NCBI RefSeq assembly: GCF_001936335.1 | Contig: NZ_CP018888.1 | Location: 310,001 to 374,000, forward strand | Direction: 5' to 3' | DNA: 64,000 bases | DNA from: Amylolactobacillus amylophilus DSM 20533 = JCM 1125 | GTDB lineage: Bacteria; Bacillota; Bacilli; Lactobacillales; Lactobacillaceae | Shown: positions 43,447-57,322 of the stretch, in pieces | Numbering within the stretch: position 1 is the first letter of the stretch | Layout of the letters: every line of letters begins with the position of its first letter | The notes under the pieces: model-generated | Told to the model about the DNA's origin: nothing | Database searches by the model: none | What the model saw: the letters and a program-made list of their open reading frames with translations, nothing else | Translations under genes and position numbers: made by a program

Positions 43447-44784
43447 ATGACCAAGGAAATAACTAACGCTACAATCAAGTCTTTTTCCGAAAAGCTAAGT
43501 AACAAACCCGGCGCAGATGTTGTTAAGAGAACCATCATGAAGAACGGTATCCTCGCATCAAGCCAAAATATGGATTCACAAATTGCCATGGATCAAACTT
43601 TCTCAGTTGAGATTGATACAGGTGATGTTGCCAACCAGAAGCAATCTGGTCGTTGCTGGATGTTTGCCGCATTGAATACAATGAGACACCCACTCCAAGC
43701 AAACTTTAAACTCAAGGGTTTTGAACTATCCCAAAACTACATAAACTTCTGGGATAAGTTCGAGAAATCGAACTGGTTCTACGAAAATATTATTAACACA
43801 GCCGCACTCCCATTAGGTGACCGCAAGGTGGACTTCTTGTTAACAACACCACAACAAGACGGTGGCCAATGGGACATGCTTGTGGCCCTCATCCAAAAAT
43901 ATGGTTTGGTGCCTAAGAGTGTGATGCCTGAAACATACAGCAGTTCGAAATCAAACGAATTGAACAGCCAATTAAACCTGAAGTTAAGAAAAGATGCAAT
44001 TACGCTGCGTAAGTTAGTCAACGATGGTAACGACGAAACAGTGGTCGAAGCCAAGAAAGATGAGCTACTTGAGGAAGTATACCGCATGCTGGTGTTCACC
44101 CTAGGTACCCCTCCTACTAAGTTTGACTTCGAGTACCGTGATGATGACAAGGAATATCACCGCTATGCAGATTTAACACCACAATCCTTCTTTCAGAAGT
44201 TTGTGGGTTGGAATTTAGATGACTACGTGTCAATCATCAACTCACCACAAAGCGACAAACCATTTAATCACACTTACACCGTTGAATTTCTGGGTAACGT
44301 CGTTAACGGTCGTCAAGTTAAGCACTTGAACCTCGAGGTTGAGGAATTGAAACGTCTTGCTGTGACACAACTTCAGGCTGGAGAAACTGTTTGGTTTGGT
44401 TCAGACGTGGGTCAATCCTCAGAACGGCAACTAGGAATCATGGATACCGAGTACTACAAGAAAGACGAGCTGTTTGATGTCGACTTCAGCATGACAAAGG
44501 CAGAACGCCTAGATTACGCTGAAAGCTTGATGACACACGCCATGGTAATCACAGGTGTTGACCTCGTTAATGGCAAACCAACTAAGTGGAAGGTTGAAAA
44601 TAGCTGGGGCGACAAGGTTGGTAAGAAAGGTTACTTCGTCATGAGTGACGAATGGTTCTCACAATTTGTCTACCAAGTAGTAATCAACAAGCAATTCTTA
44701 GCCGATGCTGAAAAGACTACTTATGAAACAGAAGAGCCTAAGGTGCTCGCACCTTGGGATCCAATGGGTGCATTGGCGCTTTAA
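43447..44784 (+). CDS. pepC: Aminopeptidase C (bleomycin hydrolase family)
   Basis: A 445-residue C1B cysteine peptidase of the lactobacillus proteolytic system. The catalytic Cys lies in QKQSGRCWMFAALNTMR, the His in LMTHAMVITGVD and the Asn in KVENSWGDKVG. ATG 43447 has TTGGAGGATT upstream. It is convergent with the FtsX permease on the other side of the integrated plasmid, and its terminator is split by it. Confidence 0.97.
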   Translation: MTKEITNATIKSFSEKLSNKPGADVVKRTIMKNGILASSQNMDSQIAMDQTFSVEIDTGDVANQKQSGRCWMFAALNTMRHPLQANFKLKGFELSQNYINFWDKFEKSNWFYENIINTAALPLGDRKVDFLLTTPQQDGGQWDMLVALIQKYGLVPKSVMPETYSSSKSNELNSQLNLKLRKDAITLRKLVNDGNDETVVEAKKDELLEEVYRMLVFTLGTPPTKFDFEYRDDDKEYHRYADLTPQSFFQKFVGWNLDDYVSIINSPQSDKPFNHTYTVEFLGNVVNGRQVKHLNLEVEELKRLAVTQLQAGETVWFGSDVGQSSERQLGIMDTEYYKKDELFDVDFSMTKAERLDYAESLMTHAMVITGVDLVNGKPTKWKVENSWGDKVGKKGYFVMSDEWFSQFVYQVVINKQFLADAEKTTYETEEPKVLAPWDPMGALAL

Positions 44785-44792
44785 TCATCATT

Positions 44793-44808
44793 AAAAATAG
44801 TTACGGAA
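44793..44808 (+). repeat. Left arm of the split pepC terminator
   Basis: AAAAATAGTTACGGAA, 8 bases after the pepC stop. Its exact reverse complement is at 57303-57318, 4 bases from the stop of the FtsX permease gene. Together they form a 16-base stem with a T-run tail, as a bidirectional terminator between convergent genes. Confidence 0.85.
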
Positions 44809-44876
44809 AAATGACCTGTACCTGCACTAGGCCCTGTCAAGTTGACCAATGAAATAATATAAAGTTGAATCTGTCT

Positions 44877-45535
44877 CTATGCGGCTTCACTCCAGTATTC
44901 ATCTGGGGTGAGGCCGTTTCTTTGTGCTGAGCGGTTGTGGTGATTGAAATATTCGATTCCTTCCTCAACCAGTCTTACAAGCTCTTCGCAAGTCTTTGCT
45001 AGTGGATGGCGAGCCATCCACCGTAACTTGAATTCGTTCCACCAGCGCTCCATCGGTGCGTTGTCGTATGGTGTTCCTGGTCGAGGCATGCTACGTGTGA
45101 CGTTGTTACGACCAAGAAAGTTGTTGAAGGCACCAGAGGTGTAGGCTGATCCTCGATCAGTGTGAACCAATGGGTGGACGTCGCCAGAAGACTCAAAGGC
45201 TCGTTGGAAAACCTCGATTTCTGCTGCTGACGTTTCAGTAGCGCTCAAATTGTAGGACAACAAACGTCGGCCGTAGAGATTAAGGACGCCACTCAGGCGC
45301 ACCTTATACTTATTATTTACGCCGTAAGTCAGTTCCGTTGAATCGGACAACCAGACCTGATTAGGACTGTCGACGTCGAAGTTCTGATTGAGCACATTGT
45401 CTTGAATGTGCTGTTCGTTCTCCTTATGTCGACTGTGCTTCTTGACCCGAATTTGACATGTCAAGCTGAGCTCCCGCATCACACGACGTACCATCTTGAA
45501 AGTAACGGGGAAGTCAATTAGGTCATCATGTTGAA
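44877..45535 (-). pseudogene. IS3-family transposase OrfB, 5'-truncated
   Basis: The C-terminal ~205 residues of an IS3-family DDE transposase: VWLSDSTELTYG, VHTDRGSAYTSG and NAPMERWWNEFK carry the D, D and E. The helix-turn-helix OrfA part and the N terminus of OrfB are missing. In frame before about LQHDDLIDFPV is unrelated sequence from the disrupted gene at 45526-45675. The element's left end (CCCTGTCAAGTTGACC, near 44831) is beside the island border; the other end is lost. Confidence 0.8.
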
Positions 45536-45675
45536 GATTCACTAAAGGAATCATACAAATTCTTTTTAATCTCGTCAGGTTCATTGACAGAATCTTCAAA
45601 CAATTCTTGAATATCAACTTGCCAAGGATCAGCAAGCATTTCATCAATGGGCTTTAATACTTTCTTTTCGTCCAT
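45526..45675 (-). pseudogene. Gene start cut by the IS3 element, unknown function
   Basis: AGGAG lies 8 bases before ATG 45675 and opens an acidic reading frame (MDEKKVLKPIDEMLADPWQV, then IQELFEDSVNEPDEIKKN) that ends at 45526 by running into the IS3 remnant. It looks like the first ~45 codons of a plasmid gene cut by the IS. I do not recognise it. It lies next to the oriT-like site, so a mobilisation gene is possible. Confidence 0.5.
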
Positions 45676-45844
45676 CTGAGTTACTCCTAACATTAGCTAA
45701 TTATTTCAGGTTTAAATTAAAGGCATCTTTTTATAGTTAGTTATTCAAAGATTGTGATTAAGTTTAGAAAGAAAAACGGTGTAAAGCAATTAAAAGGATT
45801 TGTTTGAGCGCAGCGAAATCTAATACAATTTTTGGGGTATCGAA

Positions 45845-45969
45845 ACACGTCAAAGTTAGTTGACGTGTAAGTGCGCATTGAACTAAAAAAACCTTTTATT
45901 TTAATGATCAAGTTAGCTATTTTTTAGCGTCATTAAACGGAATGAAATGAGTTTAATGCGCACTTACAC
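45845..45969. other. oriT-like inverted repeat with MOBQ nic core
   Basis: A 9-base inverted repeat ACACGTCAA-6-TTGACGTGT (45845-45868) is directly followed by TAAGTGCGC, the core of the MOBQ nick region (RSF1010, pIP501 type). A 19-base inverted copy of GTGTAAGTGCGCATT (45865-45883) returns at 45951-45969 with one mismatch. No relaxase gene is present in the window. Function is inferred from pattern only. Confidence 0.6.
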
Positions 45970-46061
45970 ACCACTCAATTTTTGGGCGTGATTTGTGCTT
46001 AAAATGTGTACCAGAAGTTGCCGGTGGCAACAACTTAACTAACCGCCCTTTGGTTGGTATA

Positions 46062-46105
46062 AACACAAAAAGGTTTAGTGAATAATCACTAAACCTTTTT
46101 GTGTT
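46062..46105. terminator. Perfect 20-base hairpin
   Basis: AACACAAAAAGGTTTAGTGA and its exact reverse complement flank ATAA. The arms carry T5/A5 runs, so it could terminate in both directions. No gene lies within 380 bases upstream on the plus strand. Confidence 0.7.
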
Positions 46106-46236
46106 GTCAGAGTGTATTGATAAGTATAGATATATTCTATGGGTTATGGGTTACAACTAATCTATCATGGGCTGGTTAAAGCGAACTTAATTAGACCCTA
46201 ATAGATTATTTGAGTTAACTGTAAAGTGGCTGGTAA

Positions 46237-46285
46237 ATAAAAAGCTAGTTATTGCCCCAATTTGGATCGATAACTAGCTTTTTAT
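46237..46285. terminator. Perfect 16-base hairpin
   Basis: ATAAAAAGCTAGTTAT and ATAACTAGCTTTTTAT with a 17-base loop; terminator-like in both directions. The region 45676-46551 has no convincing gene, only these hairpins and the oriT-like site. Confidence 0.7.
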
Positions 46286-46403
46286 TGTTGTTGATATAGC
46301 GAATTGCTAAGAATATTTTGTGAAGATAAGGTAATTGTACCGCCAAATATCCAAATAGATAGTATTATTTTTGACCTGTTTGCGAGTAATTGGTCTAATT
46401 GTG

Positions 46404-46450
46404 AAAAAGCCTGAAACTGACGTTTGTGAAACGCCGTTTCGGGCTTTTTT
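46404..46450. terminator. Terminator-like hairpin upstream of the HNH gene end
   Basis: AAGCCTGAAAC..ACG pairs with CGTTTCGGGCTT, followed by TTTTTT. It could terminate plus-strand transcription or, with its A run, the HNH gene about 100 bases away on the minus strand. Confidence 0.65.
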
Positions 46451-46551
46451 GGAGTTTGTGAATTGGGGTTGCTGCACAAAGGTCTGGAAACCGCGCCACA
46501 ACAGGCAATTAGGATAATTCAACGTTATGTCTACTCCCTTTGGTATAGGAA

Positions 46552-47289
46552 TTATGCTAATAGTATTTTCTTTAAATATTCTACGGTTAGCACATTATAT
46601 TTATCTCTATGAATCATTCTGTGACAGTTAGAACATAAAGGAACTAAGTCATTTCTAGGATCTATATTTATTTCGGTATTGTTTAAATAGAGTGGGTTTT
46701 TATGGTGAATTTCAATAAATTCATGCCCTAGAGTGCCATACTTTTTTTCAAAATTAAATCCACAAACCTTACAATTTAAGCCGTGGATTAGAATGGCGGC
46801 CTGTCTGTTTTTGGTACTTCGCTCATAACGAGTACTATACACCTTTGTTTTTTTACCCTCTGTTACTAAAATACTTGTTAGTTCGGAGTAATCACGAATC
46901 AAAAAGTCTAAAACGTTTGCTATATCGTCATCTAGCCTTCTTAGAGACTGGATATTACCTTTTAATCCTAATTCATGAAGATCTTTTAATGAAATACATG
47001 TATCTATATTTTCAATCAGACGAAGTGTTAACCAAGGACCCTTGCTAGAAAAATCTATACCTGATGTACTATATTTTGAATCATCAATATGATACGAATA
47101 AATATCCCTGCCAATAACCTGTGTTTTTAATATAATTCTTTGAGTAGGTTTTGATTCATAGATATATATTATATCTCCTATAGAAACACTCTTGTTATTG
47201 TGCTGAACCCAGTGAATGGTATGTAAATCATTAAATGCATTTTTGGCATCGTATGTATTTGGATTTGAAGGTAATATAAATGTACTCAT
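46552..47289 (-). CDS. HNH endonuclease with N-terminal EVE/PUA-like domain
   Basis: A 245-residue protein. The C-terminal HNH nuclease has CKVCGFNF, EFIEIHHKNPLY and DLVPLCSNCHRMIHR, with the metal-binding Cys and His residues. The N-terminal ~95 residues (SIGDIIYIYESKPTQRIILK) resemble an EVE/PUA-type domain that reads modified bases. This pairing is seen in type IV, modification-dependent restriction enzymes. ATG 47289 is preferred with GTGGA upstream. Neighbours are plasmid debris with no methyltransferase. Restriction of modified phage DNA is the best guess. Confidence 0.7.
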   Translation of the reverse strand: MSTFILPSNPNTYDAKNAFNDLHTIHWVQHNNKSVSIGDIIYIYESKPTQRIILKTQVIGRDIYSYHIDDSKYSTSGIDFSSKGPWLTLRLIENIDTCISLKDLHELGLKGNIQSLRRLDDDIANVLDFLIRDYSELTSILVTEGKKTKVYSTRYERSTKNRQAAILIHGLNCKVCGFNFEKKYGTLGHEFIEIHHKNPLYLNNTEINIDPRNDLVPLCSNCHRMIHRDKYNVLTVEYLKKILLA

Positions 47290-47328
47290 GTAATATCCAC
47301 GCTTTCTATAAATATTCAATAATTAATT

Positions 47329-47952
47329 TTACAATCTACCTTGCGAAAACATAATCGCATACATGGTCAGGGTAGCATTATAATAATCGTGCTTGGTCAT
47401 TGCTTTAGCAAAAATCCACTGTTCATGAAAAAACAATGAATCGTACCCTTGATTGAGATACCAACTGGTCGCCATTAGCAAGGGCGCACTAAAACTTGCG
47501 GACTGATAGTCATTGAGTGGTTTGCCGCTCATAGTATATCCTGCTGTGACAGTAGGATGCTTGGCAAAAAAGTGCAACATTGAAGTCAATGTTTTTTGTG
47601 CTAATGGGTCATGACTTTGGGCTAACAGCATAGGAACTCTACAGGCATTATAGTAGTAATCATTGGCGTATTTATTGGTAATATGTGCACCCTTTACAGA
47701 GCTTGCATTATGTTGAGTTACCCATGAAAAATCAGGAACTAAGCCTGATTTGTGCTGTTTGCTTAATTGAAACAGTCGGTTAAGCATCTTAGTTTTAATA
47801 ACTAACCATTGACGATTGTGTGAAAAATCATAAAATTGTTCAAATGCCGTGGGCATTACATCAGAACTACGCATTAAATTGGCTGAATTAGACTCAGGAG
47901 TTGCCCAGTTACCAACTGTTAACACCTGAGTATGTTGGTTTGTTTGGATTTA
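47329..47952 (-). pseudogene. Glycoside hydrolase family 8, N-terminally truncated
   Basis: About 205 residues of the C-terminal part of a GH8 endoglucanase/chitosanase-type enzyme. NLMRSSDVMPTAFEQFYDF includes the catalytic-base Asp region. The N-terminal half with the catalytic acid Glu is missing; the in-frame sequence meets a stop before the IS150-group element at 47964. GH8 enzymes accompany exopolysaccharide synthases, so this fits with the deacetylase at 55077. No longer functional. Confidence 0.75.
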
Positions 47953-47984
47953 GGTCAAGAATCTGGACACATTTTATGTATAAT

Positions 47985-48818
47985 TTAAGCGACTAATTTT
48001 TCCTTTTCATTTGGAGTTAAATAATCAATGCTACTGTGAATTCGAGCACTGTTATAAAAGCTCTCAATGTAGCTGAATATTGCAGCATTTGCTTCTTAAA
48101 AATCCTGATAATGGTGTTGGTAAACCTCTTCTTTTTTCAAACTGGCGTGAAATGATTCCAAACATGAATTGTCATAGGGACAGCCACGCTTGCTATAAGA
48201 ATGGCGAATATGGTGTTGCGCTAAGATCTGTTCAAAGCCAGCACTGCGGTACTGGCTACCCAGATCGGTATGCACAATTAAGTTATTAGTCGTCTTTCTA
48301 GTTTCAAAGGCTTGTTGAAAAGTGCTGATCACAAGATCAGCAGTCATATGACGGCTGATCTTATGGGCAATGATTTTACGTGAATATAAATCCTGAATGC
48401 TTGATAAATAACACCAGCCATTGGCTTTGGTGTGAATATAAGTTATGTCTGCACACCACTTTTGATTTGGACTGGTTGTACGAAAATCTTGCGCGAGTAT
48501 ATTTGAATAATCAGTCGCATCAATATCATTAGTTTGTTGATAATGCCACTTCTTGCGCGTGATTGATTTTAACCCCATTTGGCGCATTAATCGTTGAACT
48601 AGCTTAATACTGGCAGTCTTACCTTCTTTTTGTAATGCTTTTAGAATTTTAGGTGCCCCGTAGATACGTCTAGAATTAAAGTAAATGCGTTTAATCGACT
48701 GGCTAAGTGTCTTACGACGCTTGGCTTGTGGCGATACATGATTCTGCTGATGTTCATAGTAAGTTGAGCGTGGAACTGAGAGTACTTTACAGGTTTCTTT
48801 GATACTATGGTGCTTCAA
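47985..48818 (-). pseudogene. IS150-group transposase OrfB with an in-frame stop
   Basis: Catalytic D, D and E are in KWCADITYIH, IVHTDLGSQY and CLESFHASLKKEE. The frame stops at a TAA (48098-48096) after HHYQDF, but continues in frame [17 protein letters not shown] to a second stop at 47985, where the family normally ends. So 36 C-terminal residues are lost by a nonsense change. Expression would need a -1 frameshift from orfA near the AAAAAG at 48856-48862. Confidence 0.8.
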
Positions 48819-48853
48819 ATTAATATCAACGGCTGTCTGCCAGTCATCTGGGT

Positions 48854-49111
48854 TTACTTTTTGGCGAATATGGTTAAGGCTTTTTTTAAGATGTCATTCT
48901 CAATTTCTAGCTGTTTCAAACGTTTTTGCAACGCTAAAACATCTGATTTGGAAATTCCACTTCCTTTGTCTTCTTTATATAGATTAATCCATTTGTAAAT
49001 AGTTACATTTGATACACCATATTCGTCTGTAAGATCAGCTACCGGGGCGCCATCCTGGTACAGCTTGACAATCATTTTTCTAAAATCTACTGAGTACTTT
49101 TTCTTGGTCAT
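48854..49111 (-). CDS. IS150-group transposase OrfA
   Basis: An 85-residue helix-turn-helix protein (YGVSNVTIYKWINLYKEDKG) followed by a leucine-rich coiled coil. It precedes orfB in the -1 frame, as usual for IS3-family elements. Confidence 0.85.
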   Translation of the reverse strand: MTKKKYSVDFRKMIVKLYQDGAPVADLTDEYGVSNVTIYKWINLYKEDKGSGISKSDVLALQKRLKQLEIENDILKKALTIFAKK

Positions 49112-49173
49112 AAAAACACAATCCTTCCTATTATGGAATTATACTAAATCGTGTCCATGATTTCATACTACCT

Positions 49174-49488
49174 TCATAGGCCTTTATGCGTACCAGCTTT
49201 AGCTACTGTTTTGGTTAAAGCTGGTACGACCTCACTTATTCTTGCTATAACATTTGAATCCTTAATTTCATAAAGCTTTCTTTCATCAAGTGTTCTTTCA
49301 GAAATTAGATCTAATGTGATAGGAATTTCAAATGGTTTGTCATCTTCCACCGTAAGACTAGGTGAAATCGATATATTTTGTTGTTCATCGTTATTGCAAT
49401 TCATATTTTTTAATTTTGATTTTTTTAGTACAAGATATATTATGATAATTACAAATAATATAAAAGTAAAAAACAAAAAACTTTTCAT
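49174..49488 (-). CDS. Membrane-anchored protein, possibly truncated
   Basis: A 104-residue protein with one N-terminal helix (FLFFTFILFVIIIIYLVL) and a soluble part ending VVPALTKTVAKAGTHKGL. The stop lies 17 bases from the right end of the IS150-group element. The abrupt end suggests that the C-terminal part was lost when the IS and its neighbours recombined. I do not recognise the family with certainty. Confidence 0.55.
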   Translation of the reverse strand: MKSFLFFTFILFVIIIIYLVLKKSKLKNMNCNNDEQQNISISPSLTVEDDKPFEIPITLDLISERTLDERKLYEIKDSNVIARISEVVPALTKTVAKAGTHKGL

Positions 49489-49585
49489 TAAACATCCCTC
49501 AATTCACTTGGTATCTAAATCATTATACCCTTTTAAATGCTAACAATAATATTTGTAGTTTATTAAATTTATTGTTAGTAGACTA

Positions 49586-50173
49586 TTATCCAAAATCAAT
49601 TTGATCGAGCATAGTTTCTCGACTGGCTTGATCTAGACCAAGATAGGTTAAGGTCATGGCTTCGCTTGAATGGTTTAATAAATGCATGACTAACCCAATA
49701 TTATAGTTTGATTGCGTATAAACACGATACGCACCTATTTTACGCATGGTATGCGTTCCTAGATAGTTAATTCCTAGAAGATCACCAACTCGTGCCATAA
49801 TCTTATAAAACTGTTTCTCCGTGATATGACGGTCAGGGTGTTGAATGGAAGGAAAGAGCCACTCAGAGGCTAGTCTATGATCAAGTAGCCATTGACGGTA
49901 CAATAAGAGCTCTGTTTGAACTGGTTTAAGATACAAGGTATTCGGTTTACCAGTTTTTCGATCGTGAATGAACGCATTTTGTTTAATAGAACCGTCCGGA
50001 TTAAAAATATCGGTTTGTTTTAAGCGCATGACATCACTCACTCGCAGTAGCGTAGCTTTGCCAACTTGAAAAACTGTATAGTTACGCCGGCCAGCTTTAA
50101 AGTTGTTGAGTGAGGTATCTTGCACCTCTTTGAGAACGTTTGAATCTTTGATGGGTAAGACAACTTGTTGCAT
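49586..50173 (-). CDS. Tyrosine recombinase (plasmid integrase type)
   Basis: A 195-residue tyrosine recombinase with an Arg in LLRVSDVMRLKQTD, GTHTMRKIGAYRV (HxxR), HLLNHSSEAMTLTYLG with the His and the nucleophilic Tyr. It consists of the catalytic domain only, as in recombinases on lactobacillus plasmids that resolve dimers or shuffle sequences. It may have played a role in the integration, though the borders show no att core. Confidence 0.85.
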   Translation of the reverse strand: MQQVVLPIKDSNVLKEVQDTSLNNFKAGRRNYTVFQVGKATLLRVSDVMRLKQTDIFNPDGSIKQNAFIHDRKTGKPNTLYLKPVQTELLLYRQWLLDHRLASEWLFPSIQHPDRHITEKQFYKIMARVGDLLGINYLGTHTMRKIGAYRVYTQSNYNIGLVMHLLNHSSEAMTLTYLGLDQASRETMLDQIDFG

Positions 50174-50276
50174 AAGCTGTTAGTTCCTTTACTTTAAAAT
50201 TAATTTAGTTGCAGAAAACCTAAAAATCGAATATTATAATGTAGTACGATGGTAAACTTAAAGGAGGCGGATTAGA

Positions 50277-50555
50277 ATGAGTAATACTATTATTAAAAAC
50301 AAGACAATTTCAACTCGTGTAACACCTGACATTAGTGAACGGGCTAAAGCTAATCTAGCAAAACAAGGGCTAACCGTTTCTGAGTATATACGCTTATCGT
50401 TAGTTAAAGCGGCCAATAATGAAGTTCGATTAGTCAGCTTTTTAGATTCTCCGGAAGCCTTAGCCGCTAAAAAAGAAGCAGAAACAGGGCAGGTCAAAAA
50501 CATTGGTTCATTGACTGACTTTGAAGATTGGATCGATAAGTTAGATGCAAATTAA
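50277..50555 (+). CDS. relB: RelB/DinJ-family antitoxin
   Basis: A 92-residue protein with a ribbon-helix-helix DNA-binding start (ISTRVTPDISERAKANLAKQ) and a C-terminal toxin-binding part. AAAGGAGG precedes the ATG. It overlaps the toxin gene by 11 bases. It would neutralise the YafQ toxin and repress the operon. Confidence 0.88.
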   Translation: MSNTIIKNKTISTRVTPDISERAKANLAKQGLTVSEYIRLSLVKAANNEVRLVSFLDSPEALAAKKEAETGQVKNIGSLTDFEDWIDKLDAN

Positions 50556-50847
50556 ACAGACCAAATCTTTTGAACGTGAATTAAAAAAACTAGTCAAAAA
50601 ACATTTTCCAATAACTGTCTTGAAACCTTGTTTAAAAGCAATTGTTGAACAAGATGTACTTGTTTTGAAACAGATTAAAGATCATGCATTAAAAGGAAAT
50701 TGGCGTGGCTATCGTGAATTTCACCCTGCCAGATATGGAAACTATGGTAAAAATTATGACAACTGGATTGTTATTTATCAGCTAGATCATGATGAATTGA
50801 TTTTGTTATTGGTTGCAACTGGCTCCCATGAAATCTTGAATCAATAG
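50545..50847 (+). CDS. yafQ: YafQ-family mRNA interferase toxin
   Basis: A 100-residue RelE/YafQ fold protein: QTKSFERELKKLVKKHFP, then LKGNWRGYREFHPARYG and NWIVIYQLDHDELILLLVAT. The H and R residues and the GSHEIL end fit YafQ. It cleaves ribosome-bound mRNA. Second gene of the relB-yafQ pair; a terminator follows at 50882. Confidence 0.88.
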   Translation: MQIKQTKSFERELKKLVKKHFPITVLKPCLKAIVEQDVLVLKQIKDHALKGNWRGYREFHPARYGNYGKNYDNWIVIYQLDHDELILLLVATGSHEILNQ

Positions 50848-50881
50848 CTATAGTTTAGGGGCACTTATAAAAAAATAAATT

Positions 50882-50929
50882 AAAATAGCCCCCAACATCT
50901 AAATTATAGATATTGGGGTCTATTTTTTC
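50882..50929 (+). terminator. Terminator of relB-yafQ
   Basis: AAAATAGCCCCCAACATCTA and TAGATATTGGGGTCTATTTT pair with two mismatches, followed by TT. Confidence 0.85.
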
Positions 50930-50975
50930 GATGTTTTCGAGGGGCGATTTGTTAAAAATGGACCCTAATATTAAT

Positions 50976-51416
50976 TTAAATGTTTCTGAAGTCGTATAAA
51001 AGATCAGATAGTGTCTGGTTTTTTTGTATGAAATTTAGTAAATACTTTCTAGTTATTATAAATTGTTCACCGGAACCTCTAACTTTAGTTGCTAATAGTT
51101 GCTCTTGATCAGGATTTGGTTCTGGGCCTGTTATTTGAAAACTATGGATTATTCGGTCACGCTGCTCTACAAGTTCTGAAAACAGACTAATTATATTTTC
51201 TGGAATAACATCGGAATATTGTTCTTTCATAACTTTATGCAGAATATTCCCTGAAGTTCGATCAATTAATTCCCACCAGTTGTGTTGATCACCACTTATT
51301 TTAAGTATATTTTCTATAATAAAAGCATTGTTGGAGTTAAAAACACTTATAGCAGAACCAAGAAGCTCCCTATAATCATCATTCGGTAATGACTGTCTTG
51401 TATATTTTTCGTACAT
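50976..51416 (-). CDS. Protein with HEPN-type RxxxxH motif
   Basis: A 146-residue mostly helical protein. The segment LVEQRDRIIHSFQI contains Arg-x4-His, the motif of HEPN ribonucleases, in a helix context that fits the fold. Similar plasmid proteins carry misleading names such as selenium-binding protein. It starts after GAGGTGAAACATA. A role in phage defence or a toxin-like function is possible and not shown. It lies between two toxin-antitoxin loci. Confidence 0.6.
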   Translation of the reverse strand: MYEKYTRQSLPNDDYRELLGSAISVFNSNNAFIIENILKISGDQHNWWELIDRTSGNILHKVMKEQYSDVIPENIISLFSELVEQRDRIIHSFQITGPEPNPDQEQLLATKVRGSGEQFIITRKYLLNFIQKNQTLSDLLYDFRNI

Positions 51417-51459
51417 TATGTTTCACCTCTTTTAACATCTAATATAGAAACGTAAATGA

Positions 51460-51674
51460 TATAATGATTAAGTCGTTCGTCACCCTTGTCATGCGGAGAG
51501 GGGGTGAAAGCCATGTACGATTTAATCGACAACATATCTCAACTTGGCAATGCACTTATTATCGTGTGGTTTACGTGGTGGCTAAACAACCGTAAACATT
51601 GATATTAGTGTAATCGAACGACTCTAACTACGCAAAAAGCCTTCAGCAACTTAGGGCCTTGCTGAAGGCTTTTG
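51460..51674 (+). ncRNA. RNA I of a Fst/par-like type I toxin-antitoxin locus
   Basis: The -10 TATAAT is at 51460-51465, so RNA I starts near 51471. Its 5' end AGTCGTTCG (51471-51479) pairs with CGAACGACT (51615-51623) across the message. TCACCC (51479-51485) pairs with the GGGTGA (51502-51507) that serves as ribosome site of the toxin. The RNA ends at the hairpin 51634-51674. This layout matches RNA I of the pAD1 par locus. Confidence 0.7.
51513..51602 (+). CDS. Fst/Ldr-type small membrane toxin (29 residues)
   Basis: ATG 51513 opens MYDLIDNISQLGNALIIVWF and then TWWLNNRKH, ending TGA 51600-51602. One short hydrophobic helix, an FxxWLxxR-type end and a charged tail match the Fst superfamily of membrane toxins. 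GGGGTGA precedes it. It is too short for routine gene finding. Confidence 0.7.
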   Translation: MYDLIDNISQLGNALIIVWFTWWLNNRKH

Positions 51675-51711
51675 TGTTTGTCATGTGCCATGCACTCGAC
51701 AACATATCTCT
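51634..51711 (-). ncRNA. RNA II, antisense antitoxin of the par-like locus
   Basis: On the minus strand -10 TATAAT (51723-51718) would start an RNA near 51711 that ends at the same hairpin (51634-51674) as RNA I. The direct repeats TTGTCATG (51486-51493 and 51678-51685) and CGACAACATATCTC (51527-51540 and 51697-51710) occur in both convergent RNAs, as DRa and DRb do in par. Because the two RNAs are antisense in these, they can pair to block toxin translation. Confidence 0.7.
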
Positions 51712-51788
51712 AAGATTATTATATCATGCTTTAGATTAATTACTACTATTGGGTCTATTTGATAGTTATGGACCCTCGATAGTTTAGA

Positions 51789-52247
51789 CTAAAGTATAAA
51801 AATAAGGAAGATGGCTAAAAGAAAACAACAAAAACAAGTCCCATAAATTGATATAAGTCGATTTTTTTTATCCTTGTTTGAAACTTTTAAATCAGAATCG
51901 TATTTAATTTGCTTTTTTTTGAGCAGTTTGGTCTTTAAAAGTTCCACAAAAAAAGTAAGGGATATCGCAAAAAAACCAATAGAGTCTGTAAGTCCAAGCA
52001 TTGATAAATTATGGTCCATAATTGTAGCATATACACCAATTGTAAGACTAATCAATGCTATTGCTCCAAATACATTACGAAGTTTATCTATTCTTTTAAA
52101 AGTATGATAGTGTTTTCCGTATAAGATTGGTAAGTTACCATGTTCAATAACAAATGCTTCACGTCTTCTTATCTTCTTTGTGCTGTAAATATAAAGAAAT
52201 AGAAAAAATAGTGTCACTAAGAGTAATAAATAAATAAAAGTAACCAT
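51789..52247 (-). CDS. Membrane protein of unknown function
   Basis: A 152-residue protein with about four hydrophobic helices (IYLLLLVTLFFLFLYIY at the N terminus, FGAIALISLTIGVYATIM, a third near SIGFFAISLTFFVELL and a C-terminal one). Strongly AT-rich, plasmid-borne. No family recognised. Confidence 0.6.
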   Translation of the reverse strand: MVTFIYLLLLVTLFFLFLYIYSTKKIRRREAFVIEHGNLPILYGKHYHTFKRIDKLRNVFGAIALISLTIGVYATIMDHNLSMLGLTDSIGFFAISLTFFVELLKTKLLKKKQIKYDSDLKVSNKDKKNRLISIYGTCFCCFLLAIFLIFIL

Positions 52248-52310
52248 GTAAAATCTTCTTTCATTATTTGAGTAGATATCTTTTTATAATTTTCCCATAA
52301 GATCAATAAA

Positions 52311-52341
52311 AAGCAAGGTTTCTATAGAAACCTTGCTTTTT
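52311..52341. terminator. Bidirectional terminator
   Basis: AGCAAGGTTTC-TATA-GAAACCTTGCT, an 11-base perfect stem with A/T runs on both sides. Confidence 0.85.
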
Positions 52342-52345
52342 ATTT

Positions 52346-52733
52346 TTATACAGTTATTGCTAATACGCCCACTAATAAAATAGTAGCACTAAGTGCAAAA
52401 GCAAATGATGTCTCTGGTTCAGGAACTTTAGGAATTGCCTCTAACGCAGACGACAAGAGCGAAGATTTATACTTTTCAAGACTTATTGCAAAGTTTGCTG
52501 CATTCTTAGTTGCGTTGACTAAATTATCTAGATTGTTATTATATTTTTTAACATCTGTGGCTGTAACACCAACTGGGACAGAGGAACCAGTATATTTATG
52601 CATATGAATTTTTAGAGTTACGGCATACCCCAGGTCATAGGTGGTATTATCTGACCCTTTGTGTTTAATTGAAGATTCAAGTCGTAAAGTGAGGACATGT
52701 TCACCAGCACTAATATTGCTGGTTGTTGTAAGG
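52346..52733 (-). pseudogene. Surface protein C-terminal fragment, cut by the ISL3 element
   Basis: The 85-residue frame from 52603 has no ribosome site, but is open upstream to about 52733 in frame (TSNISAGEHVLTLRLESSIK, then HKGSDNTTYDLGYAVTLKIH). The upstream end runs into the ISL3-type sequence. So this is the C-terminal ~129 residues of a longer protein. It has a beta-rich part and ends in a hydrophobic segment (FALSATILLVGVLAITV) that looks like a membrane anchor. Family not recognised. Confidence 0.55.
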
Positions 52734-52866
52734 GTCTAAACTTTCTGGTATTGGTGAAAGCCAATGCCAGTTTTTTATTGTCTTCTTTTGGGCATACAAA
52801 AAGGACCTCACAGTCCAATGTTATGATTTAAGCAACCAAACCAAATCGTACAAAGGAGATACTGTG

Positions 52867-54108
52867 ATGCCCCAATTAAATTCTATCTTAAATCTTCTAA
52901 ATATAACAGACACAAATATCGACATCTTAAATTCAAATGACAAAGTGATATTCCGTGGCAGTCAAAAGCTCCATATCAAGGTCATCGAAGGAAGATTATC
53001 GTATCGCTTGAAGAAATGTCCTAATTGCGGGTTCGATTGCTTAATCAAGAACGGAGCTAGAGAAACCAATGTCCGCTTAGGCAGCCTCAACGGTTCCGAA
53101 TATCATTTGAAACTCTGGAAGCAGCGCTATTTGTGTAGATCATGTAAAACGACTTGTGGAGCACACACTAACCTGGTAGAAAAGAATCAATCAATGTCTC
53201 GTCAAATAGATCAACTGATCATACTTTTGGCAAAACAATCCTTTACCTTCAAATCCATCGCTATGATGCTGGGGATATCTGCTAGCACAGTCGCCAGAAA
53301 GATATATGGCAGACTTCAATTACCTAAAAGAGCACGTTTACTACCAAAGAATATCTGCATCGATGAGTTCAGGTCTGCCAATCATTTGTTTTCTTTTATA
53401 GCTTGCGATGCAGACTCTCACCAAATGATCACCCTTTTGCCCAATCGTCTTTCGATGAAGATAATCGAACACTTTAAAAGAGAGTATTCATTATCTGAGA
53501 GACAACAAGTCGAATCAGTCTCGATAGACCTGAATGCCAATTATCAAGGTGTCATAAGAAGATTATTCCCAAACGCAAAGATAATCGTTGATAGATTCCA
53601 TATCGTTCAACTGGTCGGAAGAGCGCTGGATAAAGCACGTTTGTCTGTACTGAATAGTCTCAGTGACAAAAAGTCTCGTGAATACAAAGCTCTTAAAAGC
53701 CAATGGCGGATGTTCCACTTATTTGATGATGAATTGGATCAAGCCAACATTAGATATATCTTTGGTATCAACGAGTATATGACTCAACAGAATCTTGTAG
53801 ACATTGGTCTTGATGCCGATCCAGTATTCAAAGATGTATACCAGACTTACCAGAACGTTCTACGTTCAATAAAATCTAAGGACCCTGAATTGCTTAAGCA
53901 AACATTGCAAGAATATAAAAACAATGGGAGCTCAATGGATACTGCTATAACCACTTTTAAGAACAACTACAAATATCTAGTCAACAGCTGCGAATTGCCA
54001 TATTCCAATGGTCCTCTTGAAGGATTGATTGTAAAGATCAAAAAGCTTAAACATAACTGCTATGGGTTCTGCAATCTCCATAACTTCTTTGTGAGGATCA
54101 GATTTTAG
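52867..54108 (+). CDS. ISL3-family transposase
   Basis: A 413-residue transposase with an N-terminal zinc finger (KKCPNCGFDC and CRSCKTTCGAHTN), a helix-turn-helix around SASTVARKIYGRLQL and the DDE domain (ICIDEFRSAN, SIDLNANYQG, the Glu near GPLEGL). It is intact in length, starting ATG 52867 after AAAGGAG. Confidence 0.9.
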   Translation: MPQLNSILNLLNITDTNIDILNSNDKVIFRGSQKLHIKVIEGRLSYRLKKCPNCGFDCLIKNGARETNVRLGSLNGSEYHLKLWKQRYLCRSCKTTCGAHTNLVEKNQSMSRQIDQLIILLAKQSFTFKSIAMMLGISASTVARKIYGRLQLPKRARLLPKNICIDEFRSANHLFSFIACDADSHQMITLLPNRLSMKIIEHFKREYSLSERQQVESVSIDLNANYQGVIRRLFPNAKIIVDRFHIVQLVGRALDKARLSVLNSLSDKKSREYKALKSQWRMFHLFDDELDQANIRYIFGINEYMTQQNLVDIGLDADPVFKDVYQTYQNVLRSIKSKDPELLKQTLQEYKNNGSSMDTAITTFKNNYKYLVNSCELPYSNGPLEGLIVKIKKLKHNCYGFCNLHNFFVRIRF

Positions 54109-54133
54109 GCCTCATCTCAAGATGTTTGAGGGC

Positions 54134-54161
54134 GATCCGTTAGGGTACAATCTAACGGATC
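54134..54161 (+). terminator. Hairpin after the ISL3 transposase
   Basis: Perfect 10-base arms GATCCGTTAG / CTAACGGATC, loop of 8, followed by AATTTTTG. Confidence 0.65.
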
Positions 54162-54188
54162 AATTTTTGAAAGTTTATCAGTTAGTAA

Positions 54189-54692
54189 TCATTGAGCCAC
54201 AAGCTGTAGCCATGTTGTCAATATCGCCGTCCCAATCATTAACAGCATCTTGCTGAGAATCCAGCGTTTCTCTCCTGCAGTATTCTCTACTGGAGAAATA
54301 TTAGACAGAGGAAAAACCAACAATTTTTTGTGCCGAAATTCTAGCATCATCTGCACAATGGTTAAGATAACAAACAAGACAATTGATGTCCACAAAATCA
54401 TTACACGGACACTATCGTCCAAAGAAATTATCAGAAAATCGTTTATTGAATAGACTATCCAGCCACCTAAGAAAAACACCAATGATAAAATCTTTGTTGT
54501 GCTTTCCAATTTGACTAATTGGTTCACCTTCTTAAATAAAGTTGGATTTTCACCCAGATATTTAGCTACTTCTATATAGGCTTCACTACGCTTTTGATGC
54601 GAAGCTTGTCGCCGTACCAATATTGTCAAAAAAAGAGAACTTAATAACACTGTGAATCCAAGCACACCAAGCATTAATTGTAACAACCCCAA
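54189..54692 (-). CDS. Membrane protein of unknown function
   Basis: A 167-residue protein with an N-terminal helix, two or three central helices (ILSLVFFLGGWIVYSINDFL, VMILWTSIVLFVILTIVQMML) and a C-terminal helix. TTG 54692 has AAGGAGGCG upstream and the gene follows the small peptide gene closely, so the two are likely cotranscribed. No family recognised. Confidence 0.55.
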   Translation of the reverse strand: MGLLQLMLGVLGFTVLLSSLFLTILVRRQASHQKRSEAYIEVAKYLGENPTLFKKVNQLVKLESTTKILSLVFFLGGWIVYSINDFLIISLDDSVRVMILWTSIVLFVILTIVQMMLEFRHKKLLVFPLSNISPVENTAGEKRWILSKMLLMIGTAILTTWLQLVAQ

Positions 54693-54711
54693 TTAATCGC
54701 CTCCTTAAAAG

Positions 54712-54870
54712 CTAAGCAGCAATGAATGTCGCTGGTAATAGTTTAGCAGTCGTTCCAACAAGCGTAGCCGCTACTTCTGGAGCCATAATAATTGTTGCTA
54801 TTAATACAACAGCTCCTGCCGCCAAAATCAACCCAATGACGACAAGACTAGTTATCTTGGTTTTTATCAC
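54712..54870 (-). CDS. Hydrophobic peptide fused to a copied deacetylase leader
   Basis: About 52 residues. GTG 54870 with GGGGGAG upstream opens IKTKITSLVVIGLIL, identical to the start of the deacetylase at 56351, because both lie in a 112-base direct repeat (54815-54926). After that it diverges to AVVLIATIIMAPEVAATLVG and ends LLPATFIAA. It is a small, entirely hydrophobic protein. Origin by recombination is likely; function is unknown. Confidence 0.55.
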   Translation of the reverse strand: MIKTKITSLVVIGLILAAGAVVLIATIIMAPEVAATLVGTTAKLLPATFIAA

Positions 54871-54926
54871 AGCTACTCCCCCATAATTTTTATGAATATT
54901 AAACGACAAGTTAGTGCCATTCTATA
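54815..54926. repeat. 112-bp direct repeat, copy 1
   Basis: Nearly identical to 56296-56407 with one difference (G/C at about 54821). It covers the leader, ribosome site and first ~17 codons of the deacetylase gene. Confidence 0.95.
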
Positions 54927-54936
54927 AATATAGACC

Positions 54937-55072
54937 CTACACAAACATATTTTGTAAAAAGCCTTTTTTTGTTCTTTCAACAAATCTAACTTACGCTGAT
55001 GAAGAGTGATAGTGTTGTCTAACTGTTTGAAAAATAACCCAATTTTTTGTTGACGACTTTTGTCTCGCACTC
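54937..55072 (-). pseudogene. Type I restriction specificity subunit (HsdS) C-terminal relic
   Basis: On the minus strand SRQQKIGLFFKQLDNTITLH and then QRKLDLLKEQKKAFY is the conserved coiled-coil end of HsdS. A one-base deletion in the A run (plus-strand T run 54964-54970) breaks the frame; adding one A restores GFLQNMFV and a stop at 54937. No hsdM or hsdR is present. It is a scrap of about 45 codons, 5 bases after the deacetylase stop. Confidence 0.75.
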
Positions 55073-55076
55073 TTCA

Positions 55077-56351
55077 TTATTTATCACGATGATAAAAATC
55101 TTTTGTATTAAAGAAGTCATTTAGAACCGTGTTCTCACCAATCATTGTTTCATGTAAACGAATACCATCGACATTTATCCGCGCATTACGATAATAATCA
55201 TTTGTTAATTGACCCCATGATGTCTTTGACGCATCAACATTATCGAAAATACTGAAACCGCTACTCTTAAGATAAGTGTACTTTGCATTATCATTTGTAT
55301 AATTTGTAAATGAGCCAATATCTGCTCCAAATGGGAAAATCAATACTGGTGTTTTACCAACAATTGGTTGTACTTCCTTTTGCCAAAGTGCAGTGTCCTT
55401 TTTGATATGATCAACACTGGCCGTAGTCATATTTATATGACCCCAGGAATGCGATGCAAACTGCCAACCTTCCTTTTTCATAGCGTTAGCAACCTTTGTC
55501 GCTTTCTTAGCTTCGCGATGTGTCTTTTTTGTATCACCATATTGACTCTTTGATGAACGATAACCTAGCACCCCATTATAACCCGTTTCAGCAATCACAC
55601 CCTTTGAGCCACCGTATGAGAAATCTGGATGCTTTTTGATGAAGGTATCAATAATCGGTACCATGTCATAATCACCAATTTTCTTCTGACCATTATTGGT
55701 ATATTGATTTTTAACATCACCTTGCTTATTGACGACTAATTTATCTGCAAATCCAGAATTCTTCATATACTCATAATAGTTAACATCATCCTGTGATATA
55801 ATTAAAGGCTTCTTGCCTTCAGGTAATTTGACTGGTTTGAAAGTCACCTTCCCTTGTTTATCAATCGAAATGATATCTTTAAAGTTAATTAATACATAGC
55901 CATTATCATATAACTGATTCAGCATCGGCATAAATTCGTCGATGGTCGCCATATAATCTTTGTATCCCTGTGCCTGCTCAGATGAGAAAGCTTTACCAGG
56001 ATCAACAATTAGTGAATGATAAAAAAGATGTGAAATTTTTGTCGGATCATCCCACGTGACCAACTTTGACTGTTGCTTATTAATACTCTTTTTTAGATGA
56101 TCAACTGTTGTTCCTTTGTGCCCCGATAACACTGATTTTGCTTCTTTATATTGGTACTGTTGACTTAATGATTTTGCCTGCTTTACTGCCTTAGTTGTTT
56201 GACTATCAGTTTTTACCTGCTTTACTGTCTTAGTTGTTTGACTATCATTTTTTGTAGTCATAACATCATCATCAATATTGCCATATAACCATAAGCCTGC
56301 CCCCAAAATCAACCCAATGACGACAAGACTAGTTATCTTGGTTTTTATCAC
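55077..56351 (-). CDS. NodB-type polysaccharide deacetylase, membrane anchored
   Basis: A 424-residue protein: N-terminal anchor helix (SLVVIGLILGAGLWLYG), a low-complexity region with the tandem repeat DSQTTKTVKQ / DSQTTKAVKQ (about residues 32-55), and a NodB domain. The catalytic Asp pair is in ISQDDVNYYEYM and the zinc His pair in FASHSWGHINM. It starts at GTG 56351 after GGGGGAG. It could deacetylate a secreted GlcNAc polymer; the GH8 stub in the same island suggests a former exopolysaccharide set. Confidence 0.75.
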   Translation of the reverse strand: MIKTKITSLVVIGLILGAGLWLYGNIDDDVMTTKNDSQTTKTVKQVKTDSQTTKAVKQAKSLSQQYQYKEAKSVLSGHKGTTVDHLKKSINKQQSKLVTWDDPTKISHLFYHSLIVDPGKAFSSEQAQGYKDYMATIDEFMPMLNQLYDNGYVLINFKDIISIDKQGKVTFKPVKLPEGKKPLIISQDDVNYYEYMKNSGFADKLVVNKQGDVKNQYTNNGQKKIGDYDMVPIIDTFIKKHPDFSYGGSKGVIAETGYNGVLGYRSSKSQYGDTKKTHREAKKATKVANAMKKEGWQFASHSWGHINMTTASVDHIKKDTALWQKEVQPIVGKTPVLIFPFGADIGSFTNYTNDNAKYTYLKSSGFSIFDNVDASKTSWGQLTNDYYRNARINVDGIRLHETMIGENTVLNDFFNTKDFYHRDK

Positions 56352-56407
56352 AGCTACTCCCCCATAATTTTTATGAATATTAAACGACAAGTTAGTGCCA
56401 TTCTATA
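56296..56407. repeat. 112-bp direct repeat, copy 2
   Basis: Partner of 54815-54926. It covers the deacetylase leader and first codons and is the likely original. Confidence 0.95.
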
Positions 56408-56476
56408 TCTTATTACCTCAAAAATAAAATTATTCGTAAATTGCTTTAGTTGAAACCTTAAGGCTTACATTAACTT

Positions 56477-57055
56477 TTACCAGAATTTCCACCAACGTTT
56501 AATAGCTCTATTTGTGTGTATGCCATCTTTATTACTACCAGATTTAACAATCTTCTGTTTAGCTATTTTGCTTTTTTTATCTTGGATGTTAAAAAGATCA
56601 TTTCCGGTCGACAAGTTGTCGTTAGTTTTTTGAGTTAGTTGCCCACTTAGCTTTTGTACATGATCTTTTAATCGACGGTTATCTGCTAATGTTGCTAATT
56701 GTAATTGTTGCTGCTGATCCACCAATTTTGTTAGATGATCTATTTGTCGGTCTTTGGTCGCAAGCTGTTTGTCACGTTGAGACTTTAAATCTTCTATTTC
56801 TCTTCTTAGAGTGGCAATTAGCTCATTATTTTCTTTGCTAGTCTTTGTCACTTTTTTGCTACCTGTTTGTTGGGTATTTGCTACCAAAGGCTTTGCTACC
56901 TTGTCCCTAACAATCCTTTCAGCTGTAAGGCTGATCATGTTTGTACCTTGACTATCTTTTTGTCGGTTCTTTGTTGGTAGTCTTTGGTAGTGGTATTGAA
57001 TAGTTTGTTTAGAGACCTTCAATTCGTCAGCAAGTTCCCTAATAGTTTTAGGCAT
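56477..57055 (-). CDS. DUF536 plasmid replication-associated protein
   Basis: A 192-residue protein with an N-terminal helix-turn-helix (TIRELADELKVSKQTIQYHY) and a long coiled coil (about residues 85-150, ELIATLRREIEDLKSQRDKQ). It lies downstream of the rep stub and overlaps its end by 8 bases (ATGCCTAA), the normal layout of theta-type lactobacillus plasmids. ATG 57055 was chosen; the longer TTG frame runs into rep. It may affect copy number or partitioning. Confidence 0.8.
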   Translation of the reverse strand: MPKTIRELADELKVSKQTIQYHYQRLPTKNRQKDSQGTNMISLTAERIVRDKVAKPLVANTQQTGSKKVTKTSKENNELIATLRREIEDLKSQRDKQLATKDRQIDHLTKLVDQQQQLQLATLADNRRLKDHVQKLSGQLTQKTNDNLSTGNDLFNIQDKKSKIAKQKIVKSGSNKDGIHTNRAIKRWWKFW

Positions 57056-57292
57056 GATTTCCAAACCCCTTTCGGAGTTCAGCAAGTGCTTCTGGTCTTG
57101 CTTGATCTCTTATTTTTTTATCGTGCTCGGCCTGTTTATCAGCCAATGCTTGTTTCTCAGTAGAGCCTAAAGTTAACCCCTTAACCTTGTCAATGGCGCG
57201 CCATTTTTCCTGCTCTGTTAATTCACCATTATGCTGAATGTTAAAGAGTTTTTGACGTTCATCTTGAAATTGACCTTGTGAGAAGTGAGGTA
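57048..57292 (-). pseudogene. Plasmid replication initiator, C-terminal stub
   Basis: The frame carries FQDERQKLFNIQHNGELTEQ, then EQEKWRAIDKVKGLTLGSTE and ends ARPEALAELRKGFGNHA, the C terminus of a RepB-type initiator. Its start is cut at about 57292, 10 bases from the chromosome border. About 80 residues remain; iterons and DNA-binding domains are gone. So the plasmid can no longer replicate from this gene. Confidence 0.75.
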
Positions 57293-57302
57293 TACCTCAA
57301 AA

Positions 57303-57318
57303 TTCCGTAACTATTTTT
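57303..57318 (+). repeat. Right arm of the split pepC terminator
   Basis: TTCCGTAACTATTTTT, the exact reverse complement of 44793-44808, followed by TT. It lies 4 bases beyond the permease stop on the minus strand. Confidence 0.85.
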
Positions 57319-57322
57319 TTAG

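Follow-up and report, generated by a model that had tools for sequence, protein, structure and literature searches.

Paired orphan MOBQ-type transfer origins, probable oriT mimics, in a plasmid relic of the Amylolactobacillus amylophilus chromosome

Introduction

The transfer origins (oriTs) of the MOBQ plasmids RSF1010/R1162 and pIP501 share a TAAGTGCGC-type core. For pIP501, a GpC nick together with inverted repeats has been described (PMC4981023), and the TrwC relaxase reads the nic-proximal arm of a hairpin (PMC4176350). Multiple predicted oriTs are reported to be common (PMC7755788). The idea that a plasmid may carry an oriT mimic is known from staphylococci, where work on the pWBG749 family distinguishes OT49, OT45, OTUNa, OTSep and OT408 and counts two or three such sites per non-conjugative plasmid, mostly of different subtypes (58 of 67 multi-oriT plasmids; PMC4652767, PMC8136818). 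In that family, two-oriT plasmids show no same-strand pairs, and relaxase-mediated deletion was proposed in this connection (PMC4652767). In lactococci, oriT mimics are mobilised by pNP40 and pUC11B, whose machines do not cross-recognise each other's sites; pUC11E carries a copy of its helper's nick region and inverted repeat, and paired or coded arrays do not figure in the accessible part of that report (PMC11097999).

How does the locus described here compare? With the MOBQ oriTs of RSF1010/R1162 and pIP501 it shares a hairpin placed directly before the core; unlike them, it is orphan and doubled, and its relatives carry several hairpin codes. With the lactococcal mimics it shares a setting on non-conjugative plasmids of lactic acid bacteria. 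With the pWBG749 mimics it has in common a constant core, a diverged inverted repeat, an arrangement of two or three sites of mostly different subtypes on non-conjugative plasmids and, probably, transfer in trans. There, however, the relaxase is assigned to MOBP and SmpO sets specificity, whereas the relaxases considered here are of the MOBQ type and it is one of their own segments that the code tracks; the sites, moreover, are crowded to spacings of 55-91 bp, and 8 of 27 arrays include same-strand neighbours. In place of the core CTTATGCTCTT and the MOBP relaxase SmpP that mark the pWBG749-type family, we find the core TAAGTGCGC and MobA_MobL relaxases. Literature searches, with most subscription journals outside their coverage, found neither a MOBQ mimic setting in Lactobacillaceae nor compact arrays nor a relaxase segment that tracks the hairpin, and these three points are what we consider new.

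Results

Two nic cores on opposite strands

The window, by which we mean the whole 64,000-nucleotide stretch analysed, is part of a single 1.61-Mb contig. A pattern search of it located two TAAGTGCGC nic cores head to head, one on the plus strand (45868-45876) and one on the minus strand (45958-45966). Their starts are 90 bp apart with 81 bp between the cores, the 19-base nic segments of the two strands agree at 17 of 19 positions, and a repeat search recovered the pair as 33-nt arms that are 79% complementary. The original prediction had placed a mirrored nic copy 86 bases away; the copy is there, at the spacing just given. Three copies of TAAGTGCGC occur in the window against 0.36 expected, a count reached by 1 of 100 shuffles, the third (24745) being solitary and without a GT preceding the core.

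The plus core is directly preceded by a hairpin (45845-45868, plus strand; ACACGTCAA / AGTTAG / TTGACGTGT), as had been foreseen: ACACGTCAA (45845-45853) and TTGACGTGT (45860-45868) form a perfect 9-bp inverted repeat, and the final T of TTGACGTGT doubles as base 1 of the core. Its five basal pairs (45848-45852 with 45861-45865) read CGTCA/TGACG, and as single-stranded DNA it folds at -8.6 kcal/mol (z -3.13). The minus site, in contrast to this perfect repeat, retains its core only. The hairpin module adjoining it (45967-45995, minus strand) is degraded, with no more than three of five bases of the basal arm paired and a fold of -5.9 kcal/mol (z -1.25), while its nic-proximal arm TGGTG corresponds to a code, J, also found in relatives at loci L012 and L205-L208 (L numbers are our handles for fetched loci). 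The minus site is an oriT in its own right with a different hairpin code, not a plain mirror copy, and it is degraded in the window. Further to the right, a distal box, AGAAGTTGCC..GGCAACAAC (46010-46034), resembles one that adjoins the relaxase-linked oriTs of L008 and L009. To the right of the array, two inverted 20-bp arms that match perfectly also enclose a loop of four bases (46062-46105). An Rfam search over 44000-58000 returned no matches.

A plasmid-derived stretch of the chromosome

Matches to plasmids start at 45545 and stop at 57286, within a 'replication initiation protein' gene, and GC content drops to 33-39% across 46-57 kb. In or beside this stretch lie insertion-sequence genes, a tyrosine recombinase (49586-50173, minus strand; PF00589, E 6.5e-17), a RelB-like/YafQ toxin-antitoxin pair of the plasmid backbone (50277-50847, plus strand), a polysaccharide deacetylase, and a DUF536 plasmid protein (56477-57085, minus strand) adjoining the truncated replication gene, whose remnant extends to 57286. 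From its gene content we read the region of about 45545-57286 as a plasmid relic inside the chromosome, its replication gene/DUF536 backbone apparently broken by insertion sequences and its replication gene cut. The RelB-like antitoxin (50277-50555) also scored above the cut-off for a NikA-like mobilisation protein family.

A profile search found no MobA_MobL relaxase in the 1.61-Mb contig (free plasmids, if any, possibly lie outside it). This answers the call for a search elsewhere in the genome and supports the earlier proposal of an orphan MOBQ-type oriT that would be usable in trans only. The same chromosome carries two Mob_Pre (MOBV) genes (738035-738613 and 657490-658071), one of which overlaps the single, sub-cut-off PF03432 match in the genome. 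The MOBV nic differs from the MOBQ-type nic, and for that reason these genes were not counted as helpers.

Relatives next to MobQ relaxase genes

Relatives beside relaxase genes, on which the original prediction depended, do exist. A 153-bp segment of the window matches 94 plasmid records, typed as non-mobilizable (69), mobilizable (23) or conjugative (2), and in Leuconostoc pLMCBA713102 and Tetragenococcus pTDC-A (loci L008 and L009) a gene annotated mobQ follows closely on the right half of the segment. Throughout the fetched loci, the core sits 110-120 bp upstream of a MobQ-type gene, on the opposite strand, at 92 of 100 relaxase starts. One further start has its core at 192 bp and seven have none within the available sequence, which in two cases ends too soon (contig ends). 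The linked relaxases match MobA_MobL, and their fold is that of NES (4ht4; Z 23.8, rmsd 2.5, 191 aligned) and MobA (2ns6; Z 18.9, rmsd 3.0, 175 aligned). Some relaxases from genomes of the window's own family are identical to those of named Lactobacillaceae. Loci L325-L327 gave no relaxase match.

Among viral contigs, we obtained three relaxase relatives and no match to a short-spacer double core (20-45 bases between, unlike the window form). On Lactobacillus gallinarum pMKG01 (L005), four identical orphan oriT copies lie about 4.4 kb apart, which suggests a multimer or a repeated unit.

Discrete hairpin codes before a constant core

While the core is constant, the hairpin preceding it comes in discrete forms. 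Each code is defined by the five pairs of the stem that occupy positions -7 to -3 relative to the core, and we distinguish eight: A (CGTCA/TGACG), B (CATAG/CTATG), C (CCCCA/TGGGG), D (CACAA/TTGTG), E (CTCCA/TGGAG), F (CATCA/TGATG), H (CCCTT/AAGGG) and J (CACCA/TGGTG). All five basal pairs are formed in 208 of 243 distinct sites, as against 7.1% when the right arm is taken from another code. Full pairing holds for 115 of 128 relaxase-linked sites and for 93 of 115 sites that we call orphan, meaning that no relaxase lies within 320 bp in the fetched stretch, a definition to be read with the caveat that the plasmids of L213 and L215 are typed MOBQ and MOBV, respectively.

At the sixth pair, beside the basal arm, many orphan sites differ from the linked ones. 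Linked A-code sites have A (19/20) or G (1/20) at this position and never T (0/20), whereas 8 of the 12 orphan A-code sites, among them the plus site of the window, have T; for code E, G occupies it in 13 of 16 orphans versus none of seven linked sites. These orphan variants of A and E may thus be separate labels whose relaxases lie outside the sampled sets. No linked relaxase was found for code H, for code J or for the exact plus hairpin of the window among the loci fetched, namely those from 301 genomes of the family (partial matches mostly left out), the best 80 of 142 relatives in named genomes, and those from 295 genomes of the order at one locus a genome. Code H is frequent in these loci (19 distinct sites, e.g. 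L134, L138, L141, L143 and L148). In 101 of the 243 sites, moreover, a GCAC upstream of the hairpin (e.g. L001:4579, L012:842) can pair, in folds, with the GTGC of the core.

Hairpin class and a segment of the relaxase

On a tree of relaxase N-domains, hairpin class changes 12 times, compared with a mean of 51.4 after shuffling (89 rows). This tree holds 89 of the 100 relaxases, seven having been left out for want of an upstream core and four for an N-domain shorter than 180 residues. The alignment columns that predict class concentrate within residues 150-178, which contain the nine best and 21 of the best 28. Between two deep clades, segment identity is 0.823 for same-class pairs and 0.545 for different-class pairs; across the rest of the domain the corresponding values are 0.756 and 0.750. 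With relatives more than 85% identical excluded, nearest-neighbour prediction of the code was right for 58.9 of 88 relaxases from the segment and for 12.7 of 88 from the rest, and 29-residue windows not overlapping the segment reached at most 26.0 of 86 (80% cut).

These figures come from the same data on which segment 150-178 was picked, and a fairer test is that on 30 relaxases not used earlier, in which the segment was right for 25 and the rest of the domain for 26. Left unscored were relaxases that lacked a nearby core, duplicated an earlier one or carried a code other than the eight (8 rows). At L239, L271, L286 and L288, only the rest of the domain was wrong and the segment right. All five segment errors fell on C-type rows. 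In three of these the segment is the one that L073 and seven C rows have in common, so that row order decided between equal matches; the other two differ from this L073/C segment by a single residue. L073 carries an A-type hairpin upstream and a segment identical to those seven C-type rows, which makes it a true exception to the code and the clearest one; L095 combines a C hairpin with a divergent segment. Permuting labels within a small clade gave 1/60 for the segment and 1/60 for the rest. Taken at the level of sequence, the association between label and segment is strong, with exceptions.

In the L008 relaxase, residues 154-176 fall between two blocks aligned with NES. A structure model of alignment A2 has a mean pLDDT of 77; segment 150-178 is poorly predicted in it (block means 58, 60 and 45, with residues 168-177 below 50).

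Compact arrays and exchange of hairpins

Taking as an array any two or three cores that fall within 300 bp, we obtained 27 distinct ones from the fetched loci (28 listed, 27 after merging strands), a collection assembled by likeness and not a census. Nineteen are head-to-head pairs, three combine such a pair with a further same-strand core, and five have same-strand cores only, L211 being counted among the last owing to a changed base in its left core. The double inverted layout, which the original prediction had called unusual, is found in 22 of these 27 arrays, and of 397 genomes in the family 9 contain it (the reversed control pattern gave no matches there); that description was not supported.

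Within one array, no code is repeated (0/27). Random code pairs, drawn from orphan code counts, would match in about 18% of cases; given shared ancestry, with perhaps seven lineages represented, this is a weak rather than a clean statistic. Among the 16 loci of the L204-L219 set, ten retain a head-to-head pair of exact cores, one core has decayed in L209, L211, L212 and L217, and L218 and L219 have a single core.

Alignment of 18 window-type arrays reveals where they vary. The left flank (45708-45835; mean pairwise identity 0.957) and the inter-core spacer (45877-45957; 0.963 over columns 45892-45955) are about 96% identical, in contrast to the right hairpin, where identity falls to 0.476 and the class changes. 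A single 58-bp unit distinguishes L006 from L015, and the 12-bp core GCGCACTTACAC recurs at its edge, the trace expected of an exchange at the nic core. Relaxase strand transfer may have been the route of this hairpin exchange.

Discussion

What might this pair of sites do? We consider it likely that the segment is an orphan MOBQ-type oriT pair within a chromosomal plasmid relic, belonging to a class of oriT mimics that would be used in trans and whose hairpin would serve as an address label. Behind this reading stand observations made here: the anatomy of the sites, their linkage to relaxases, the association of label and segment, the exchange of hairpins, and the lack of a MOBQ relaxase in the contig. 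From these we infer nicking, the assignment of sites to relaxases and any transfer of the relic. A MobQ relaxase supplied by a co-resident plasmid would recognise the hairpin before TAAGTGCGC, nick the core and lead that strand into the recipient; the basal stem would act as the address label, probably read by relaxase residues 150-178. Two or three differently labelled sites would then allow one plasmid lacking a relaxase to ride with several types of helper, and placing them on opposite strands would avoid relaxase-made deletions between same-strand oriTs. The deletion argument from staphylococci fits the head-to-head layout seen here, though same-strand neighbours with different codes do occur. 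As for the plus site of the window, its five basal pairs are those of A-type oriTs and its sixth pair differs, and its helper would accordingly be either an A-type relaxase or a related one not yet recognised. For the minus site, loss of function is probable.

This last point leads to the question of whether the window copy is purely a relic, with nothing in the present chromosome left to mobilise, a view that is compatible with our main reading and to which we give slightly under an even chance. The replication gene is cut at 57286, the minus hairpin is degraded, no MOBQ relaxase was found in the contig, and single cores have decayed in other carriers as well. Against it, neither the plus hairpin nor its core shows any flaw, and over 70 bases they are identical to their counterparts on plasmids L001 and L002.

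A second alternative concerns the label itself. Hairpin and segment might be associated by shared descent only, with an accessory protein reading the label, just as in pWBG749-family plasmids SmpO and not the relaxase decides (PMC4652767, PMC8136818). L073, whose segment and hairpin belong to different classes, would suit such an explanation. The agreement between segment and label, however, spans two deep clades between which the rest of the domain hardly differs by class, and we regard descent alone as unlikely.

Considerably less probable still is that the paired hairpins are recombination or resolution sites of the adjoining tyrosine recombinase, serving multimer resolution or a cassette rather than transfer. 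Relatives of this recombinase gene do directly adjoin the oriT array in plasmids L001, L006 and L204-L210, hairpin modules are swapped sharply at the core, and the 58-bp unit that sets L006 apart from L015 is in keeping with such a role. Yet the same core and hairpins recur upstream of MobQ-type genes at the 92 starts described above, which is not the placement expected of a tyrosine-recombinase cassette site; hairpin class follows relaxase sequence; and the small plasmids L003 and L004 have no recombinase in their (incomplete) annotation. That the hairpins are single- or double-strand replication origins of rolling-circle plasmids we find hardly credible. Small, sparsely annotated carriers do exist (L003, of 1.9 kb, has a rep gene, and L004, of 2.7 kb, a lone hypothetical gene), but the window-type arrays of the fetched carriers have in their vicinity a 'replication initiation protein' gene that belongs to a different plasmid type, which we take to be theta-replicating, and the core and its position fit MOBQ oriTs with hairpins that follow relaxase type.

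Our preferred reading, that of oriT mimics addressed by their hairpins, extends the original prediction by the plasmid relic with its cut replication gene, by the separate code of the second site and by the match between code and relaxase. The element itself is real and of an ordinary kind; what it led to is a fairly surprising, testable rule for the family. Tentatively, and with a confidence that stays somewhat below even, we propose that Lactobacillaceae possess an open transfer-address system, in which a five- or six-base-pair hairpin code before a constant core would be matched by a 29-residue relaxase segment, this segment being itself exchanged between relaxase lineages, and in which compact multi-code arrays would arise through exchange of hairpin units at the nic core, perhaps by relaxase strand transfer. 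On this proposal, codes H and J, together with the six-pair variants of A and E seen in orphans, predict relaxases as yet unrecognised. Should the code prove right, five or six base pairs would be enough to name the helper of a plasmid from lactic acid bacteria that lacks its own relaxase, ideas on which plasmid mobilises which could be tested from sequence, and the family would offer a MOBQ system whose relaxase specificity maps to a single, exchangeable segment.
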